Positions 4,087-11,745 of a stretch of 64,000 nt of DNA are shown here, piece after piece. How positions within the stretch are numbered: the first letter of the stretch is position 1; each line of letters opens with the position of its first letter. Made by a program: the position numbers and the translations under genes. Origin of the DNA: Pseudonocardia sp. T1-2H (lineage in GTDB: Bacteria > Actinomycetota > Actinomycetes > Mycobacteriales > Pseudonocardiaceae). A model generated the notes under the pieces. That model was not told the DNA's origin. It saw only the letters and a program-made list of their open reading frames with translations, and ran no database searches. The DNA lies in NCBI RefSeq assembly GCF_038039215.1, contig NZ_JBBPCL010000001.1, positions 1-64,000 on the forward strand. Direction: 5' to 3'.

Positions 4087-4467
4087 CTACTTGTCGCTGC
4101 TCGGGCGCGGCGCCGGGGCCGAGGCGTGCTTGAGGCCCATGGCCCGCCACGCGAGTCCGGAGTTGACCCGGCCCGCGGACTCGAGCTGGTAGGGGGACAC
4201 GCGGACGTCGATCAGCTCGACCCGCACGTCCTCCCCGAAGTCCGGCCCGGGATCGGTCGCGAGGGTCACCTTGATCTCCTCGCCCTTCGGGGCCCGCTCG
4301 CCCGGCTTGGCCCGCAGCTTCGCGAACAGCGACACCGTGAACTGGGTGGCGCCGTCGCGGTCGGTCACCGGAATCTGGGCGCCGTTGACGTCATCGCGCA
4401 TCTTCGGGGCGGGCGGCTCCACGATGGTCAGCTTGTAGCCGCCGAGGTTCACCGGAATGTCTCGCAT
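4087..4467 (-). CDS. AICE-conserved hypothetical protein, 126 aa
   Basis: Start ATG 4467 is preceded by a good ribosome-binding site (AAGGAG) 8 bases upstream; ATG 4509 would add residues that overlap the repeat region and is less likely. The protein is soluble and beta-rich (NLGGYKLTIVEPPAPK near the N-terminus). Proteins of this size commonly open the transfer operon in pSAM2-like elements, but I cannot give a function. A 155-bp gap separates it from the Cys-rich gene. Confidence 0.65.
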   Translation of the reverse strand: MRDIPVNLGGYKLTIVEPPAPKMRDDVNGAQIPVTDRDGATQFTVSLFAKLRAKPGERAPKGEEIKVTLATDPGPDFGEDVRVELIDVRVSPYQLESAGRVNSGLAWRAMGLKHASAPAPRPSSDK

Positions 4468-4496
4468 CGCTCTTGCTCCTTCGATCGATCCGTGTA

Positions 4497-4581
4497 GGCC
4501 CCTAAACATCTGAAGCAGTGATGTTGAGGGGGCTAAACCGATGATGGCCCGCGGCGAGCCTGCTTGTCAAGGGGCCTAAAC
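4497..4581. repeat. Three direct repeats with core CTAAAC, candidate operator
   Basis: Three copies of a GG(C/G)CCTAAAC-like element end at 4507, 4538 and 4581, in the gap between the leftward transfer operon and the rightward HTH gene. Copies 1 and 3 share the core CCTAAAC and copy 2 has GCTAAAC. The third copy ends 8 bases before the GTG start of the HTH gene. This is a natural binding site for a regulator of both divergent transcripts, or an iteron-like element. Seen directly; function inferred. Confidence 0.5.
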
Positions 4582-4589
4582 TCGCGGGC

Positions 4590-5415
4590 GTGGATGAGGA
4601 GTTCGAACGCCTGCGCCGGGAGCCTGACCCGGTGCGACGAGGGCGCAGGGCTACCGAGCTTCCTGGCGACTTACCAGCAGCGCTCGGTGGAGCTGGCGCG
4701 CCTACGTCGGGCCGCGATCGAGGAGGCGCGGGACCAGCTCGGCGGCAGTTACACCGAGGTCGCCAAGGCCTTTGGGCTGACGAAGGGCCGGATCACGCAG
4801 ATCCGCAACAGCGCCCCGCCCGCGCACCGGGCGTTCTTCGGGGTCGGCCCGCTCGACGTCGCGGTGGTCGGCCGGCGCATCTTGGAGCGCGAAGACATGG
4901 TCATCGCCGCCGAGGACGATGCGGTAGGCGCGCGCCTGATCGCTGAGGCCGAGCAGCTCGCCTTCACCGCCGAGCGGCTGGTCGTCGACCCGCGCGAGGA
5001 GTGGGAGCCGGCCGGCGACTCGATCGTGGTGTGTGGCCCGGCGTCGGCGCACATCGGCAACGCGCTGATGAGCGAGGACCCGGTACTCGGGATGACCATC
5101 GCTGACGGGGGCCGCTGGTACATCGTGGACAAGACCACGGGGGAGCGGCTCGCCTCGCCGATGGACGACCCCGAACCCCGCCGGGCCGACGTCGCCTACC
5201 TCGCCCGCCATGTCCGCGACGGCCAGGTCATCACCCACATCGCCGGAGTCCACGCGCTCGGCTCGATCGGCGCCGCCCACTACCTCACCGAGCACCTGGC
5301 CGAGCTGTACACCGCGCACCCCGACGACTCGTTCAGCATGGCCGTAACCGCCGAGTTCGACGGCCTCACGCCCAAGTCCAGCGACGTCCTCGTGGCCCCG
5401 CGACCATGGGCCTGA
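4590..5415 (+). CDS. Sigma-factor-like HTH DNA-binding protein, frameshifted as written
   Basis: The N-terminus is read in one frame from GTG 4590 (MDEEFERLRREPDPVRRGRR) and the rest in the next frame from about 4665 (LATYQQRSVELARLRR). Removing one C of the pair at 4662-4663 joins them into a protein of about 274 aa. The HTH lies at about 50-75 (SYTEVAKAFGLTKGRITQIR), typical of actinobacterial sigma-70-region-4-like regulators. The C-terminal 180 residues have an unrecognised domain. There is almost no leader between the repeat at 4571-4581 and the start, so the mRNA may be leaderless. It overlaps the phosphatase gene by 10 bases. The shift is not in a long homopolymer, so it could be a real mutation. 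Confidence 0.7.
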
Positions 5416-6224
5416 CCGTCGCCGCTGCGTCGCGGCCTGGCGGGGACCCGCCGGGACAGGATCGGTGGGGAACGAGCGCGCGAGCCGCGGTCGTGCTCGA
5501 CGGCGCCAGCTCCTACAGCCCGGAGGCCCCGCCGGCCGATGACTACGTCGACGTGCTGCTCCCGGCTCTGCTCGGCCGCGTGGACGACGGCGATCTCCGT
5601 GACCAGCTCCGCGAGGCTCTCGCCGGGATGGTCGACCGCCTCGGGTTGGTGCCCGGCGCGGCGCCCTCGTCCACCGTGCTGATCCTCAGGGTGGGGGAGG
5701 AGCTGGTGGAGGTCGCTGCGCTTGGCGACAGCACGGCCGTCATCGGTCATCCCGACGGCACCACGAGTCGACTGTCCGACGACCGGCTTGCCCGCATCGG
5801 GGCCGACCAGCGTCGTGCCTATCGGGAGCACCTACGGCAGGGAAGCGGCTTCGGCCCCGACCATCGCGACCGCCTACGCGAGTTGCAGCGCAGCGAGTTC
5901 CCGCACCGCAATCAGACCGGGGGCTACTGGATCGCAGAGGCCGATCCGGCGGCTGCTGACGAGCTGGTCGTCCGCTCGTTCCCGCGCGATGCGGTCTCGT
6001 GGGTCGTGCTCGCCACTGACGGAGCCCAGATGCACATCGACCGGCTCGGTGACCGATGGGACGTCATCGCGAGGCAGGGCGACGGACAGCTCGCCGCGTT
6101 CCTCAACAGTGCGCAGCAGTGGGAGACCGAGGCAGACCCGGACGGCATCGAGCTGCCTCGATCCAAGCGCCACGACGACAAGACCGTCGTCGCATGGCAG
6201 CCCGCGGCGTCACCCATCAACTGA
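5406..6224 (+). CDS. PP2C-like protein phosphatase, 272 aa
   Basis: PPM/PP2C-family serine/threonine phosphatase fold. Metal-site motifs are visible as VVLDGASS (about 28-35), AALGDST (about 103-109) and VVLATDGA near 200, in the expected order. The canonical DGxxG reads DGASS, so activity may be altered. It overlaps the HTH regulator gene by 10 bases and is probably co-translated. The pair may form a phosphorylation-linked switch for the element. No cognate kinase is present in the window. Confidence 0.75.
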   Translation: MGLTVAAASRPGGDPPGQDRWGTSARAAVVLDGASSYSPEAPPADDYVDVLLPALLGRVDDGDLRDQLREALAGMVDRLGLVPGAAPSSTVLILRVGEELVEVAALGDSTAVIGHPDGTTSRLSDDRLARIGADQRRAYREHLRQGSGFGPDHRDRLRELQRSEFPHRNQTGGYWIAEADPAAADELVVRSFPRDAVSWVVLATDGAQMHIDRLGDRWDVIARQGDGQLAAFLNSAQQWETEADPDGIELPRSKRHDDKTVVAWQPAASPIN

Positions 6225-6449
6225 GACCTCGTCTCGGAGAACCTCCAGCCGACAACCGCGCTGACCTGCAGTTCCGCACAGCTCGTGGCCGCGGGGTTCA
6301 GACTTTCTCTACCTGTTCAAGGCGGCGCCTGCGGCGCCGCGCGGCGCTGCGTCCGGTGCAGCCGCAAGCGCTCGCGCGGGGCGTGCGGCCTCCGGCCGGT
6401 CCCCGCGCGGCGCACGGCTGCCAACTCGTGCCGCAGTTATGGTTGGCCG

Positions 6450-7250
6450 ATGGGTGCGACCCCGAGCGACTCCGAAATTCTTGCCGCCCTCGACCGGTCA
6501 GGATTCCTCTTAGAGCAACGAGTTGCCGCCGAATTGGAAGCCGCTGGATTCGGAGTCCGCATATCTGCCGCCTACATGGACCCCGACCTGCAGAAAACTC
6601 GCGAGATTGACATTATTGCCGCGAGAAGAGTCACCGACCGTGGGGGCCACAAGCGGCACGCATGGCTGATCATAACCGTCGAGTGCAAGAGCACCCCACT
6701 GCCCCATATAGCTTTTCTGAACGACTGGAAAAACTGGGATAGGGAGAACTTGCCCTGGGAGGTTCGCCTTCCCCCTGAGTTTGAGACCCTGAAGCGATTC
6801 ACCGACGAGTGGGCCATTCATCGTGTAAATTCAACCCGGCGCGCAGTGCAGGTTGTTCGCATGGATCGGGAAGGATCCGGCTTCAAGGCTCGGAGTGACA
6901 TGCACGAAACCGGCCTTCCCGCGATCAAAGCCGCACGCGACGCTCGAATTCGATACGGCGGGGCCGACAGAACCACGCCGATCATCTCTTTCCCCGTAGC
7001 CGTGGTAGGCGGGGACATTCTCTCAGTCGGTCCCGGAGACTACGATAATCCCACTCTTACGCATCAGGACTTCGTCGTTGTTTCGTACGAGAATCGCAGC
7101 GAGTGGACCTCGCGCGATCACAACAGAAGTCATTACGACCTCGTCAGTTTCACATCTATGCGAAAATGGATTGATCACATCAACAGCGTTTCCGGGCGGG
7201 TTGCCGAATACGTGCCGCACTTGCCACCGTCACTCGATTTCGACGACTGA
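6450..7250 (+). CDS. PD-(D/E)XK nuclease-like protein, 266 aa
   Basis: Start ATG 6450; longer in-frame starts lack protein-like sequence. The N-terminal half looks like a restriction-endonuclease fold: a helix with Glu (EQRVAAELEAAGF, about 22-34), then REIDII (51-56) and a beta strand ending ITVECK (75-80), matching the D...ExK catalytic pattern. The C-terminal half is unrecognised. Codon usage is clearly less GC-rich than the flanking transfer genes (AAT, ATT and ATA appear), which suggests separate acquisition. No methyltransferase lies immediately beside it, so it is not an obvious restriction-modification pair. A defence or mobile-element nuclease is a reasonable guess. Confidence 0.6.
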   Translation: MGATPSDSEILAALDRSGFLLEQRVAAELEAAGFGVRISAAYMDPDLQKTREIDIIAARRVTDRGGHKRHAWLIITVECKSTPLPHIAFLNDWKNWDRENLPWEVRLPPEFETLKRFTDEWAIHRVNSTRRAVQVVRMDREGSGFKARSDMHETGLPAIKAARDARIRYGGADRTTPIISFPVAVVGGDILSVGPGDYDNPTLTHQDFVVVSYENRSEWTSRDHNRSHYDLVSFTSMRKWIDHINSVSGRVAEYVPHLPPSLDFDD

Positions 7251-7682: not shown

Positions 7683-8393
7683 TTACGAACCGGAAACCCT
7701 GTTCTCCTTCTCGCGGGAACTCGTCACTCTCCGAAACATGGTGCGTGTACGAGGCTTTTGCGTCTCGGTCGTTGCTAACTCTGGGTGTCTGGCAAGCCAG
7801 TCCTTCTCGTCCTTATCGGACTGGGCGATCTCATCGGCATAAATGATGTCCCGATACTCTGCATCCAGATCTTGTAAGGCAGCCGCGATCCGGACCATGG
7901 CGGTTGGCCTACTCGGCAGCTCGGCGCCACTGGCGCACGCGGCCAGAACCTCCCTGGCATATGCGACAGCGGCCCGGGAGATCGAGTAGGGCTGCCAGTA
8001 GAAGTGGCCCATGTGGTAAAGCGATCCCGACTCGTGAAGAGCTTCCAGGGAGAATTCAACCTCCTTGCGGACGGCGGTCGGGAGGTACAGGAGCTCAAGG
8101 TGGAGTTGATCGCGGATTAAACTGGTCTCCGAGGCGTAGGCGGTCGACTCCTCGCCCTCGAGACGATCTGCACGCATCTGCCGATGGTCGAGATCGGTCA
8201 GGAGCGCGCTTGCCCGCTGAGCAGCGGTGACTTCTCGGGCACGCGCTTCCTTGGATCGCTCAGACGCAACTGTCCGTCTGTGTTGGCGACCACCTGCCGC
8301 AAGTGTTGTCACAGACCCGACGATCGCCCCGACGAGTCCCGATCCGGCGGTGATCATCGCAGTTACCGTCGCGGGGTCCACAGATTCGGACAC
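7683..8393 (-). CDS. Membrane-anchored hypothetical protein, 236 aa
   Basis: GTG start at 8393. A hydrophobic Gly/Ala/Val segment at about 11-33 forms an N-terminal anchor, followed by a charged helical region (EARAREVTAAQR) and a soluble domain I cannot assign. The C-terminus is rich in Lys and Arg. Base use is less GC-rich than the chromosomal genes. It is divergent from the TcmP gene across a 306-bp gap. Small anchored proteins with a helical cytoplasmic domain are common in mobile-element cargo, but nothing shows what it does. Confidence 0.65.
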   Translation of the reverse strand: MSESVDPATVTAMITAGSGLVGAIVGSVTTLAAGGRQHRRTVASERSKEARAREVTAAQRASALLTDLDHRQMRADRLEGEESTAYASETSLIRDQLHLELLYLPTAVRKEVEFSLEALHESGSLYHMGHFYWQPYSISRAAVAYAREVLAACASGAELPSRPTAMVRIAAALQDLDAEYRDIIYADEIAQSDKDEKDWLARHPELATTETQKPRTRTMFRRVTSSREKENRVSGS

Positions 8394-8699
8394 TACGGTG
8401 AGGTAGATGAGCTACGCGCGGCGGCCGGCCATAGGCCGCCTTATCTTCTCGTCCTCTCCAAGAGTCACGACCGTGCCGACCGCCTCAACCCCGCTGCGCG
8501 CCCCGGCGCCGACCCTGGCCGGTCGTTCGCAGGAGCTGTCACTCCAGTGTCAAGGAGCGGGGCAGCGTCGAGGTGTCCGGCGCCAGGGGCCAAGCTCACA
8601 GTCAGCCTGAACGGAGCGGGGTGGATCAGTAACGCCGCGTGGTCGGGGAGCGAGTTCCCCATGCAGACCACGACGAGCATGCGAGGGTGCGCCCACACG
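8394..8699. other. Divergent intergenic region
   Basis: This 306-bp gap separates the leftward membrane-protein gene from the rightward TcmP gene and should hold both promoters. A short hairpin (GGGGA...TCCCC, 8645-8660) lies near the TcmP start. I see no gene or clear promoter boxes. Confidence 0.4.
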
Positions 8700-9821
8700 A
8701 TGGCAAGTACCGACGATACCGACGGCGACGACGACACCGTCTGGGAGCTGAAGCCTCACACCGAGGCCAAGCACCGGCTGCTGACAGGATACTTGAAAGC
8801 TTGGTTCCCCGTCCTGAGCCGGTGGAACGATCGCATCGTTTTCCTGGATGGCTTCGCTGGGCCAGGAATTTACAAGGGTGGGGAACCGGGCTCACCTACG
8901 CAGGCTTTGGGTGTCCTACTTGATCACACCTACGGGGCTGCAATGACGAACAAAAAGTTCGTCTTCATCTTCAACGAGGACAAACCCAGGCGCCACGCAA
9001 GACTGACCGAAGTTGTCGATGCTTTCATGGCTGAGCACCAGCCTTGGCCAGCGAATGTGGAAGTCTCTGTCCAAGGCGACAAGTTCGAAGACCTCGCGGA
9101 GGGCATTCTCGCCTACCTCGACGAGCAGAAGGCGCACCTCGCGCCCACCTTCGCCTTCATTGACCCGTTCGGCGTCAAAGGCCTGCCGATGGATTTGCTA
9201 CGTCGCTTCTTGTCATTCGAGAAGTGTGAGCTGTTGGTGTACTTCGACTTCAACACGGTTAACAGGTTCGCGAATGCTGGAAATATCGATCCCAGGCTAG
9301 AGGAACTGTTCGGTACGGACCTTTTCAAGCAGGCGAAGGGACTTTCCGGGGCCGAACGTAAGGCTTTCCTGCATGATCTCTATCAAGCGCAACTTACGGA
9401 CGTCTGTGGATTCCCGCTCGTCAAAAGCTTCGAGATGATCAACGAGACCGGTCACACCGGCTACTTCCTCTTCTACGGCACCCGAAACATCAAGGGCCTG
9501 GAGATTATGAAGGATGTGATGTGGCGTGTCGACCCGGGCGGCGGGCAAAGGTTCTCTGACAAGCTCGCAGGCCTGGATGTCCTCTTCGAAGACGAGGTCG
9601 ACACCCGACCTTTACAGAGGGATATGGCTCAGCACTTCCGTGGACAGACGGTCACAGTCGAGACCCTCGAGCACTACATCCTCATCGACACGCCTTATGC
9701 TCTGAAGCACCTGAAGAAGTTGACATTAAAACCGATGCAGATGGCAGGGGGTATAACCAGTCCGAATCAGAAAAAGCGGAACACTTACCCCCCTGGGACG
9801 CTGATCGAGTTCAGGTCTTGA
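8700..9821 (+). CDS. tcmP: Three-Cys-motif partner protein TcmP
   Basis: A 373-residue protein of the TcmP family, which occurs next to Gp37/Gp68-like three-Cys-motif proteins. The N-terminal block FLDGFAGPG (about 48-56) resembles motif I of SAM-dependent methyltransferases, and FAFIDPFG (about 151-158) resembles their catalytic-loop motif; an amino- or nucleic-acid methyltransferase fold is plausible but unproven. Start ATG 8700 is chosen because a GAGGG lies about 10 bases upstream and the family domain begins soon after; longer starts add unlikely sequence. It runs tail-to-tail with the Gp37/Gp68-like gene with no bases between the stop codons. Moderate GC suggests lateral transfer. Confidence 0.85.
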   Translation: MASTDDTDGDDDTVWELKPHTEAKHRLLTGYLKAWFPVLSRWNDRIVFLDGFAGPGIYKGGEPGSPTQALGVLLDHTYGAAMTNKKFVFIFNEDKPRRHARLTEVVDAFMAEHQPWPANVEVSVQGDKFEDLAEGILAYLDEQKAHLAPTFAFIDPFGVKGLPMDLLRRFLSFEKCELLVYFDFNTVNRFANAGNIDPRLEELFGTDLFKQAKGLSGAERKAFLHDLYQAQLTDVCGFPLVKSFEMINETGHTGYFLFYGTRNIKGLEIMKDVMWRVDPGGGQRFSDKLAGLDVLFEDEVDTRPLQRDMAQHFRGQTVTVETLEHYILIDTPYALKHLKKLTLKPMQMAGGITSPNQKKRNTYPPGTLIEFRS

Positions 9822-10577
9822 TCACACGGCGACTGAACTGCGCTGCTCGGGATACTCGCTCCAGAGTCGACCGTCGAGGGTTCGTCCGCCAGCCTTCGGT
9901 GTGTGGCCACCCCACTGCTTAAAGAAAAAGGGCACCCCCGCGTCGTTCGCGACGTCACGAAGCGAGCGGACCCAAGAAGGGTCAACAGGACGAGCCCTCG
10001 CACCGCTCTCCCCGCCAGCGATGACCCAATGGATGCCGTCAAGATTGATGCCGTCCAGCGGGCCAATCAAAGGCTCCGCTGAAATAAAACGAACGCCAGC
10101 TGGCACGGAGCGCAGGTGATCCATTCGCTTGAGTTGATCCTGGGATTCGACACTGACGCCCATCCACAGGTTGGAGGGCCAGTCAAGCTGATCGGCAAGA
10201 CGGGCGAGTCGGGAAGCTCGTTTCGTCAGCACTTGATAGGTGTGCCGCGGCGTAGCTGCGATCGTCGCGAAGACGTCCTGCACGTAGCTCAATGGCACCT
10301 TGGCGTGGAACAAGTCACTCATGCTGTTAACGAAGATGACTCGCGGCTTCGCCCACCGCAACGGCACGTCAAGGGAATCAGGATGCAGGGTCACGCCGAA
10401 GCCAGGACCAGACGTTATTTCATTGCCGTCAAGCTGGTAGCGAGCTTGGCCCATCGCCTTCAGTCGCCCAGCAAGTTTTAGGGCGTAACAGTTGTCGCAG
10501 CCAGCGCTGATTTTGTCGCAGCCCGTCGTGGGGTTCCACGTCGCTTCGGTCCACTCGATCGAGCTACTTTGCGCCAT
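9822..10577 (-). CDS. Gp37/Gp68-family three-Cys-motif protein (DUF5131)
   Basis: 251 residues. The diagnostic cluster lies near the N-terminus: Cys20, Cys27 and Cys30 in CDKISAGCDNC. This resembles a relaxed radical-SAM or iron-sulfur binding site, and the family is often described as radical-SAM-like. Later conserved-looking blocks are IFVNSMSDLFH, GVSVES and GGESG, consistent with a TIM-barrel core. First described in mycobacteriophage gp37/gp68, it is usually paired with TcmP, which is directly convergent here. Its substrate is unknown. A perfect palindrome lies 27-44 bases upstream of the start. Confidence 0.85.
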   Translation of the reverse strand: MAQSSSIEWTEATWNPTTGCDKISAGCDNCYALKLAGRLKAMGQARYQLDGNEITSGPGFGVTLHPDSLDVPLRWAKPRVIFVNSMSDLFHAKVPLSYVQDVFATIAATPRHTYQVLTKRASRLARLADQLDWPSNLWMGVSVESQDQLKRMDHLRSVPAGVRFISAEPLIGPLDGINLDGIHWVIAGGESGARARPVDPSWVRSLRDVANDAGVPFFFKQWGGHTPKAGGRTLDGRLWSEYPEQRSSVAV

Positions 10578-11171
10578 CTTGAGAGCTTACAGATGCAGAC
10601 GGTATCGAACAAGTGTTCGATGAGTGTTTGGCAACTTTGCGTCGAACGGTTCGGTCCGTCGGTGACCTGCATACCGTCTACGGCTGACGGCTCTACCCTA
10701 CCCAGCGCAAGCTGATGGTCGCTGACGAGCTGCATGTCCGGGCGCATGTCCCAGTTGTCAGTGCGTCGACAACGGTGTCGAGGGCGGGGGCGGACGCCAT
10801 GTCGGCAGTCTGTCGAGCGGGCTCAGGAGCGTGGCGCGCGATCGTCAATCGTTCGTCAGAGCGCCCACCAACAGCGACAGACGGCGAGGACTGGCGAAGG
10901 CCATCCCCGCAGGTCGGATCGGGTGTAGACCGGAATGCCGCAGGTAGGCGCGACCTGCGGATTCGTTCCGGTTCAACGTCTGGCCCTCGCCGGGCAGGCA
11001 TGTCTCCGGGATGGCGCTCCAGGGGCACTCTGAGGGCGTGGCACGGCACGTCAGGGATGCAGCAACCGACAGCAACCAGTGTCGCAACCCGGCCCGCTCA
11101 GCTCGTCCGCAGGCGGACGCCGATGAACGCCTGAGCAGCCAGGGAGCGGCGGGACCAGGGCGCCAGCACAC
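10578..11171. other. Gene-poor stretch before the attachment-site scar
   Basis: About 590 bases without a credible gene. It begins with the promoter region and palindrome of the Gp37/Gp68-like gene. The remainder shows no protein-like frame; minus-strand frames such as AEGFEPPDPFGTLAFK are read through the tRNA-Ser scar and are artefacts. Confidence 0.5.
10604..10621. promoter_or_regulatory. Perfect palindrome ATCGAACA-AG-TGTTCGAT, candidate operator
   Basis: Two 8-base arms, exact reverse complements, are separated by two bases. It lies 27-44 bases upstream of the Gp37/Gp68-like start, where a repressor would block transcription. The motif resembles SOS-type GAAC...GTTC boxes of actinobacterial LexA sites (GAACAnnTGTTC is present), so DNA-damage control is a specific possibility. 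Confidence 0.55.
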
Positions 11172-11227
11172 CTTGAAAGCGAGAGTCCCGAAAGGGTCCG
11201 GGGGTTCGAATCCCTCCGCTTCCGCCA
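11172..11227 (+). other. tRNA-Ser(TGA)-like 3' half, attachment-site copy A
   Basis: The sequence begins in the anticodon loop (CTTGAAA, anticodon TGA) and continues through the 3' anticodon stem, a variable arm (CCCGAAAGGG), the T-arm (loop TTCGAAT) and acceptor CGCTTCC-G-CCA. The 5' half (GGAAGCG, D-arm, matching anticodon stem) is missing, so this is an integration scar, not a tRNA gene. It lies 2 bases from the integrase stop codon on the opposite strand, the classic att-int arrangement. Confidence 0.8.
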
Positions 11228-11229
11228 GG

Positions 11230-11745
11230 TCACGGCGCTGTCGGCCGATCATGGTTCGTCTCGATGGTCGGCCTGACATCAACCGGTGGCATCAACCCGG
11301 CCGAAACCGCCTCCCCGAGCTGGGCCAGTGCTGCGACCTTTTCGGTCAGGTCTCCGTGCGCGTAGACCATCATCGTGACCTTGATGTCGCTGTGGCCGGC
11401 GATCTCGCGGACCACGTGCGGGGGCACGCCGAGGGCGAGCAGCAAGGACACGGCGGTGTGCCGCAGGTCGTGGAAGCGCAACGTTCCGAGGCCGGCTGCC
11501 TCACGGACGTCGTGCCAGTACTTGACCAGCGTGTAGGGCGACATCGGCCGGCCCTGCCGGGTGGCGAACACGAACCCGGAGTCCTCCCATTTCTCACCGG
11601 CGTCGGCCCGTTCGGCGTCCTGGCGCTTCTGGTGCACGCGCAGCGCCGAGACCACGACGTCGGGCAACGGGATCACCCGCCGGGGCGCCCGGGTCTTCGG
11701 TGGCTGGAGGCTCTGCCTATGTCTTGTTCTGCACGACGCCGGCAA
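11230..11745 (-). pseudogene. Tyrosine integrase, C-terminal fragment
   Basis: The catalytic C-terminal half of a phage-type tyrosine recombinase. HDLRHT, then GHSD and the nucleophile region MMVYAH, supply the box-II His/Arg and Tyr residues; the first catalytic Arg is absent from this piece. Protein-like sequence begins near 11710 (LQPPKTRAPRRVIPLPD). An intact integrase of this class is about 380-450 aa, so more than half is missing or displaced. A middle fragment of a similar integrase survives at 12040-12255. It should be inactive. It sits beside attachment copy A. Confidence 0.8.

Follow-up and report, generated by a model that had tools for sequence, protein, structure and literature searches.

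A host-type LexA box in front of DUF5131 in a convergent tcmP-DUF5131 gene pair of Pseudonocardia sp. T1-2H suggests a mobile module inducible by DNA damage

In the first 64,000 nucleotides of contig NZ_JBBPCL010000001.1 of Pseudonocardia sp. T1-2H (assembly GCF_038039215.1; this whole stretch is referred to as the window) the gene tcmP and a gene of the DUF5131 (Gp37/Gp68) family are placed tail to tail, and the sequence TCGAACAAGTGTTCGA, located at 10605..10620 and 27 bp upstream of the start codon of DUF5131, agrees with the LexA/SOS box in 12 of 12 positions. The gene pair itself is ordinary, both families being catalogued; the LexA box, overlooked in the preliminary description of the region, adds DNA damage as the clue that leads most directly to a function. 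The reading proposed here, to which we give a probability of roughly 45%, is that the pair constitutes a mobile, DNA-damage-inducible module editing nucleic acid, most likely DNA.

No second exact match to the box pattern occurs in the window, and the whole 7.0-Mb genome has 12 in all, against none for the reversed pattern. Upstream of the host recA an 11/12 box was identified 190 bp before the RecA domain, and the lexA region (L222) contains two 11/12 sites and one 10/12 site ~300-390 bp upstream of the LexA domain; a further box is situated ~1.06 kb upstream of the same domain. Since the recA and lexA boxes agree with it, the DUF5131 box is of the host's own type, and it also matches the Streptomyces LexA consensus tCGAAC-N4-GNNCGa (PMC9380542; this and the other papers cited by PMC number for a finding are quoted from excerpts). 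With a host-type box this close upstream, DUF5131 is very probably controlled by LexA, the binding of which we infer from the sequence. Elsewhere in the genome an exact LexA-type box precedes the gene of a DnaB replicative helicase by 11 bp (L012, G000:C1:6417676-6420691) and another precedes by 12 bp an open reading frame (ORF) of 221 amino acids (aa) with a weak HNH nuclease match (L004, G000:C1:949147-952162), by its box possibly another SOS gene; apart from the dnaB site, most of the other 11 exact sites could not be tied to known SOS genes.

The layout of the pair was surveyed in 93 loci with a TcmP alignment, comprising 80 of 312 genome matches and 13 viral ones. The genes are convergent in 38 loci, DUF5131 precedes tcmP in 23, tcmP precedes DUF5131 in 11 and two pairs are divergent; in the remaining 19 no DUF5131 was detected in the flanking DNA examined, some of these stretches being short. 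Boxes were first noticed by eye in one locus set and then counted in other sets. Among the TcmP-matched loci, from which L153 was removed as a duplicate of L092, the 120 bp in front of DUF5131 contain the core GAACN4GTTC in 14 of 37 convergent pairs, in 1 of 23 with DUF5131 in front of tcmP and in neither of the two divergent ones; none of the 69 leading tcmP genes has it upstream. Per kb it is found 2.0 times upstream of DUF5131 and 0.014 times in the rest of these loci (binomial p 2e-27, a value which overstates independence as the loci are related). When the arms were combined with each of 11 other spacers, 0 or 1 occurrences resulted, and likewise for each of the other 11 orders of the arm letters; when 3328 palindrome patterns were ranked over 133 leading upstream regions, three registers of the LexA box took ranks 1-3 (16, 15 and 14 regions). 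A box matching in at least 10 of 12 positions is present upstream of 22 of 62 DUF5131 genes and 1 of 69 tcmP genes, against 2.6% of control windows. A second set, made up of the order and genus samples and allowing at most two mismatches, gave 15 of 54 for DUF5131 and 3 of 42 for tcmP, against 3.9% in the control. In 8 of 11 loci of one family (f3, possibly Micromonosporaceae) the sequence near DUF5131 is GAACN4GTAC instead of GAACN4GTTC, and GAACN4GTAC is also found upstream of recA in all eight of these genomes, which belong to two genera and are not independent; the DUF5131 box therefore takes the form that the recA box has in the same genome.

The two ORFs, 8700..9821 on the forward strand (tcmP, 373 aa) and 9822..10577 on the reverse strand (DUF5131, 251 aa), meet stop to stop in the sequence TGA|TCA with no base between the two stop codons, just as the preliminary description had it. 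As the public copy of TcmP (P0001) has 386 aa, translation may start at 8661 instead of 8700. TcmP scores 175 bits against TIGR04474 (cut-off 53) and has the three-cysteine DUF5131 gene as its adjoining, convergent neighbour, while the DUF5131 protein scores 327 bits against PF07505 (cut-off 28.9); in PADLOC they fall into the classes PDC-M30A and PDC-M41B/M30B, respectively, both candidate defence proteins. The methyltransferase-like motifs already pointed out in TcmP, motif I (DGFAGPG, residues 50-56, 8847-8867 on the forward strand) and motif IV (DPFG, residues 155-158, 9162-9173), are conserved at most positions in 83 aligned TcmPs, with D50, F52, G54 and the whole of DPFG invariant and G51, A53 and G56 nearly so. 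The cysteine cluster noted earlier in the partner is C20, C27 and C30 (C-x6-C-x2-C, 10488-10520 on the reverse strand) and is invariant in 64 aligned DUF5131 proteins. A weak match to the GMT-wHTH winged helix covers TcmP residues 294-340 (9579..9719, forward strand; PF22560, 22.9 bits, cut-off 27), and PF22560 is present in the precomputed annotation of many TcmP relatives. No special structure above shuffled controls was seen at the junction of the convergent genes, and the region 8400-10800 holds one promoter-like and four terminator-like matches, about the level of shuffled sequence and none of them at the junction.

That the two families recur together, as had been stated from the outset, is clear from a phylum sample of 396 genomes, where TcmP is found in 41, DUF5131 in 43 and both in 29 (overlap counted by hand from two tables), compared with ~4.5 expected if they were independent. 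Convergent ends often touch or slightly overlap (30 of 38 pairs lie within -11 to +12 bp), and because 34 of the 93 loci have both genes on the same strand the tail-to-tail arrangement is a clade feature and no requirement. Of 298 genomes from the order 40 contain DUF5131, the present genome counted among them, and no match was obtained for the two listed genomes of the same genus. In one other genus, probably Mycobacterium, the figure is 38 of 198 genomes, and all four low-scoring partners from that sample turned out to be TIGR04474 proteins of the PDC-M41A type. This scattered occurrence of DUF5131 is consistent with mobile cargo. Among phage records 159 match DUF5131 and 8 match TcmP; among plasmid records the figures are 406 and 47. 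The DUF5131 family is very large, with at least 7999 protein matches (all 7999 candidates scored did match). Around viral DUF5131 genes a TcmP-like match was found in 30 of 80 loci and none in the flanking DNA examined of the other 50. A toxin-antitoxin system, with a toxic DUF5131 induced by damage and TcmP as its standing antidote, would agree with the opposite regulation of the two genes in the convergent close relatives, but DUF5131 without a TcmP match is common, as in these 50 viral loci, and such a system is highly improbable.

Structure prediction, one of the checks suggested for the supposed methyltransferase-like and radical S-adenosylmethionine (SAM)-like proteins, gave good models with both types of fold. 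In the DUF5131 model (mean predicted local distance difference test score, pLDDT, 88.1) a radical-SAM-type barrel is combined with three cysteines near the N-terminus, and the closest solved fold is spore photoproduct lyase (SPL), followed by other radical-SAM enzymes. The TcmP model (pLDDT 91.9) matches the folds of RlmJ and Trm1 and carries a Trm1-type DPFG. At sequence level no such relationships appeared: for TcmP Pfam gives PF22560 alone and no RlmJ/DUF519 match, searches of Protein Data Bank (PDB) sequences with TcmP and DUF5131 returned no meaningful match and no RlmJ chain, and SPL was absent from the PDB sequences that the DUF5131 profile matched up to an E-value of 10. From the model, DUF5131 can with good confidence be expected to perform radical-SAM chemistry, presumably with an iron-sulfur cluster held by the three cysteines. 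DNA is somewhat favoured over RNA as the substrate. The converse, that TcmP and DUF5131 modify ribosomal or transfer RNA under DNA-damage stress in the manner of RlmJ, Trm1 and RlmN, is improbable given that the closest fold to DUF5131 acts on DNA, that the winged-helix match and the SOS control favour DNA and that housekeeping RNA modification seldom shows such a scattered, mobile distribution.

A mechanism for the proposed damage-inducible module can be outlined as follows. TcmP would be an RlmJ/Trm1-like methyltransferase acting on the exocyclic amino group of a purine; having no SOS box in the closest relatives it would stand ready in the cell, perhaps binding DNA through its winged helix. 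Upon DNA damage LexA would be cleaved and DUF5131 released, an SPL-like radical-SAM enzyme which would generate a 5'-deoxyadenosyl radical at the C-x6-C-x2-C iron-sulfur cluster and reverse or rewrite an abnormal base, with TcmP supplying the targeting or methylation step. Hosts would keep the module next to restriction genes and within the immunity cassettes of prophages, places where DNA is frequently broken. Reversal of a lesion, as opposed to modification or attack, is possible but falls somewhat short of an even chance. A more specific version, which would amount to a new class of mobile immunity or repair, is doubtful: here a standing N-methyltransferase would mark or recognise DNA purines, the SOS-released radical-SAM enzyme would rewrite or reverse the base at that site, and the scheme would resemble restriction-modification with radical chemistry in place of a nuclease.

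The scan of neighbouring genes covered 114 of 133 chosen ORFs in 32 loci, called in GC-rich DNA by a simple rule on GC content at third codon positions that may err, and the resulting counts have no random background. In four loci type II restriction genes, encoding an EcoRI-type adenine methylase and a GmrSD/HNH nuclease, are located just upstream of tcmP (L081 and L085 checked singly, L082 and L084 inferred from family counts of four), and the annotation of the Rhodococcus plasmid pYYL1.1 shows the same order of methylase, nuclease and TcmP. HsdM and HsdS of a type I system lie upstream in a Hyphomicrobiales locus (L101), the DISARM gene drmC is found near the pair on plasmid pNOCA01, and single neighbours match SAVED-HNH, Mrr-type, dCTPase and E1-E2 proteins; four integrases were also seen. 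In Sinorhizobium one expression table has the TcmP gene SMa2243 next to SMa2245, the gene of the Hna defence system (PMC12445080), and TcmP has been found in phiLM21-like prophages (PMC12429752). These restriction and immunity contexts, together with the PADLOC classes of both proteins, would suit a defence of the restriction-modification kind, where N-methylation by TcmP would mark self nucleic acid and the radical-SAM enzyme, induced by damage, would alter or break the DNA or RNA of an invader that lacks the mark; the opposite regulation of the two genes in close relatives fits such a mark-then-attack scheme, and CapH+CapP, CapW and CapK+CapS are established cases of defence operons controlled by DNA damage (PMC13373217). 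A widespread TcmP-free DUF5131 is unexpected for an attacker that needs a protective mark, and the defence-neighbour counts lack a background rate, so that we consider defence of this kind rather unlikely. The role in defence or counter-defence put forward in the preliminary description is in this way upheld in part, through the candidate classes and through genes beside some relatives, as far as counts with no random background can tell. Repair best fits the SOS box and the SPL fold and defence best fits the neighbourhood, and both may hold.

Five Gordonia phages (ThankyouJordi, Bosnia, BaxterFox, Fairfaxidum and Easley) carry the pair between integrase and immunity repressor, a further immunity cassette in line with defence; in an unrelated pair, that of prophage CarolAnn, defence genes are likewise kept with the repressor (PMC6426606). 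In these phages tcmP comes directly after the repressor gene, no more than 4 bp away and read in the same direction. The five TcmP proteins all match the profile, with scores of 57 to 419 bits, and two of them contain DPFG. DUF5131 of BaxterFox is an open frame unannotated in the record. Four of the five phages (L312, L316, L317 and L319) share the palindrome AGGCATGCCT at a conserved position in front of DUF5131; it occurs once per locus and is absent from the repressor-cro gap, and it is not claimed as a phage operator. The presence of the pair on plasmids and phages could also point to counter-restriction, the pair putting an unusual base into the element's own DNA during induction or transfer and so evading host nucleases. 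A longer DUF5131 right after a DNA methyltransferase gene (~526-530 codons) on a Nocardia plasmid and in Gordonia phage Bakery (L311 and L315) is compatible with this, as are replication or recombination genes among some phage neighbours: the 93 neighbours in TcmP-free viral loci (48 of the 50, two having given no DUF5131 ORF) include matches to RusA (2), DnaB (2) and ERF (1). Only one of these 93 is an N6/N4 methylase, so the idea that DUF5131 always goes with a DNA methyltransferase was dropped, and the position of tcmP after the immunity repressor suggests lysogenic rather than lytic expression. Both points count against counter-restriction, which seems quite unlikely.

Several observations weigh against the proposed damage-inducible editing module. 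The exact box is missing in 23 of the 37 convergent pairs, and the four restriction-linked pairs reach just 7-9 of 12 positions, which tells against the defence alternative as well. In the phylum sample, this genome excluded, the core is found upstream of 3 of 29 tcmP genes (L034, L035 and L040) and in 2 of 29 DUF5131 loci; the genomes of L034 and L035 gave no DUF5131 match, and in these two loci the LexA-type core lies 160-163 bp upstream of the TcmP domain start. Three loci of the mycobacterial sample in the second set have a box on both genes. A general rule that the box stands on the DUF5131 side only is contradicted by these six loci and was dropped; judging from the sequences, SOS control of the module appears to recur while the gene that bears the box varies by lineage. 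On mobile elements the box is scarce: the five Gordonia phages have none near DUF5131 (at most 9/12), among five plasmid copies examined a 12/12 box is present in pUSK13 and none in the other four, and GAACN4GTTC was found in 2 of 80 viral DUF5131 loci, where no other palindrome is prominent. DUF5131 is far commoner than TcmP and for that reason cannot always need it. As for the chemistry, the usual cysteine spacing of radical-SAM enzymes is C-x3-C-x2-C, from which C-x6-C-x2-C deviates, DUF5131 has no sequence relative in the PDB, an SPL-like fold does not in itself prove a DNA substrate, and DPFG is missing in three of the five Gordonia-phage TcmPs.

When compared with known systems, both proteins match the models TIGR04474, PF07505, PDC-M30 and PDC-M41, above the cut-off where one is set, but these libraries give no function, regulation or mechanism, to which the SOS box and the SPL-like and RlmJ/Trm1-like folds are now added. 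The term PDC-M30 is contained in PMC10855318 and PMC11878078. Unlike SPL, the radical-SAM enzyme that repairs ultraviolet lesions, DUF5131 has the spacing C-x6-C-x2-C and a partner methyltransferase, and no sequence relationship to SPL was found in the PDB searches. TcmP differs from RlmJ (23S ribosomal RNA adenine-N6) and Trm1 (transfer RNA guanine-N2) in the absence of a sequence match, in its C-terminal winged-helix stretch, and in being mobile and paired with DUF5131. The nearest regulatory likeness is vnz_31145 of Streptomyces venezuelae, an SOS-induced radical-SAM gene in the LexA regulon (PMC9380542), likened here by description and with no partner methyltransferase mentioned in the excerpt. 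As in the Cap operons, DNA damage would turn on an accessory operon, and in four of the five Gordonia phages an annotated protease or peptidase gene adjoins DUF5131 (with the motif HELVH in ThankyouJordi), recalling CapH+CapP; in contrast to those operons, the chromosomal copies of the pair appear to use the host LexA directly. In Mycobacterium tuberculosis Rv2734, Rv2735c, recX and recA form a mitomycin-responsive cluster (PMC5057432) and Rv2735c is co-transcribed with recA-recX (PMC3062782); Rv2734/Rv2735c was considered as a TcmP/DUF5131 pair, but this identity could not be shown, and it was not used. The literature searched, with most subscription papers outside its scope, reports neither a function nor SOS control for the pair among the matches listed and gives no function for DUF5131.

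The surroundings of the pair in the window have the character of an island. The GC content is 0.59-0.64 in 2-kb windows at 6-12 kb and ~0.70-0.77 elsewhere, apart from transition windows. The C-terminal part of a tyrosine integrase is located at 11230..11745 on the reverse strand (PF00589, 66.9 bits, profile positions 66-168 of 172) and also matches the phrog_1 integrase (positions 329-460 of 611). It is touched by a remnant resembling the 3' end of a transfer or transfer-messenger RNA (tRNA/tmRNA) at 11142..11227 on the forward strand (RF00023, 20.8 bits, gathering score 47), possibly an attachment-site scar; ARAGORN detected no tRNA at this position, and the host ssrA was rejected as attachment site as the remnant is no copy of its 3' end. 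In a look for an empty site within the genus, the flank gene was matched weakly in one of two relatives. Low GC, integrase remnant, scattered distribution and occurrence on plasmids and in temperate phages all agree with the mobile-element cargo proposed earlier. Further upstream, tandem genes at 4564-6224 (forward strand) encode a protein with a weak helix-turn-helix match and a PP2C-type phosphatase (29.3 bits), the ORF 4087-4509 (reverse) weakly resembles the SCO3933 regulatory family (36.3 bits against a cut-off of 80), and for the ORFs 6285-7250 (forward) and 7683-8393 (reverse) searches of Pfam, NCBIfam, PADLOC and PHROGs at E 0.01 returned nothing.

Taken for the DUF5131 family, conserved LexA control together with an SPL-type fold points a very large orphan family towards a function that can be tested. 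If the proposed module is real, it would connect the SOS response with base chemistry by radical-SAM enzymes and with mobile islands of defence genes.
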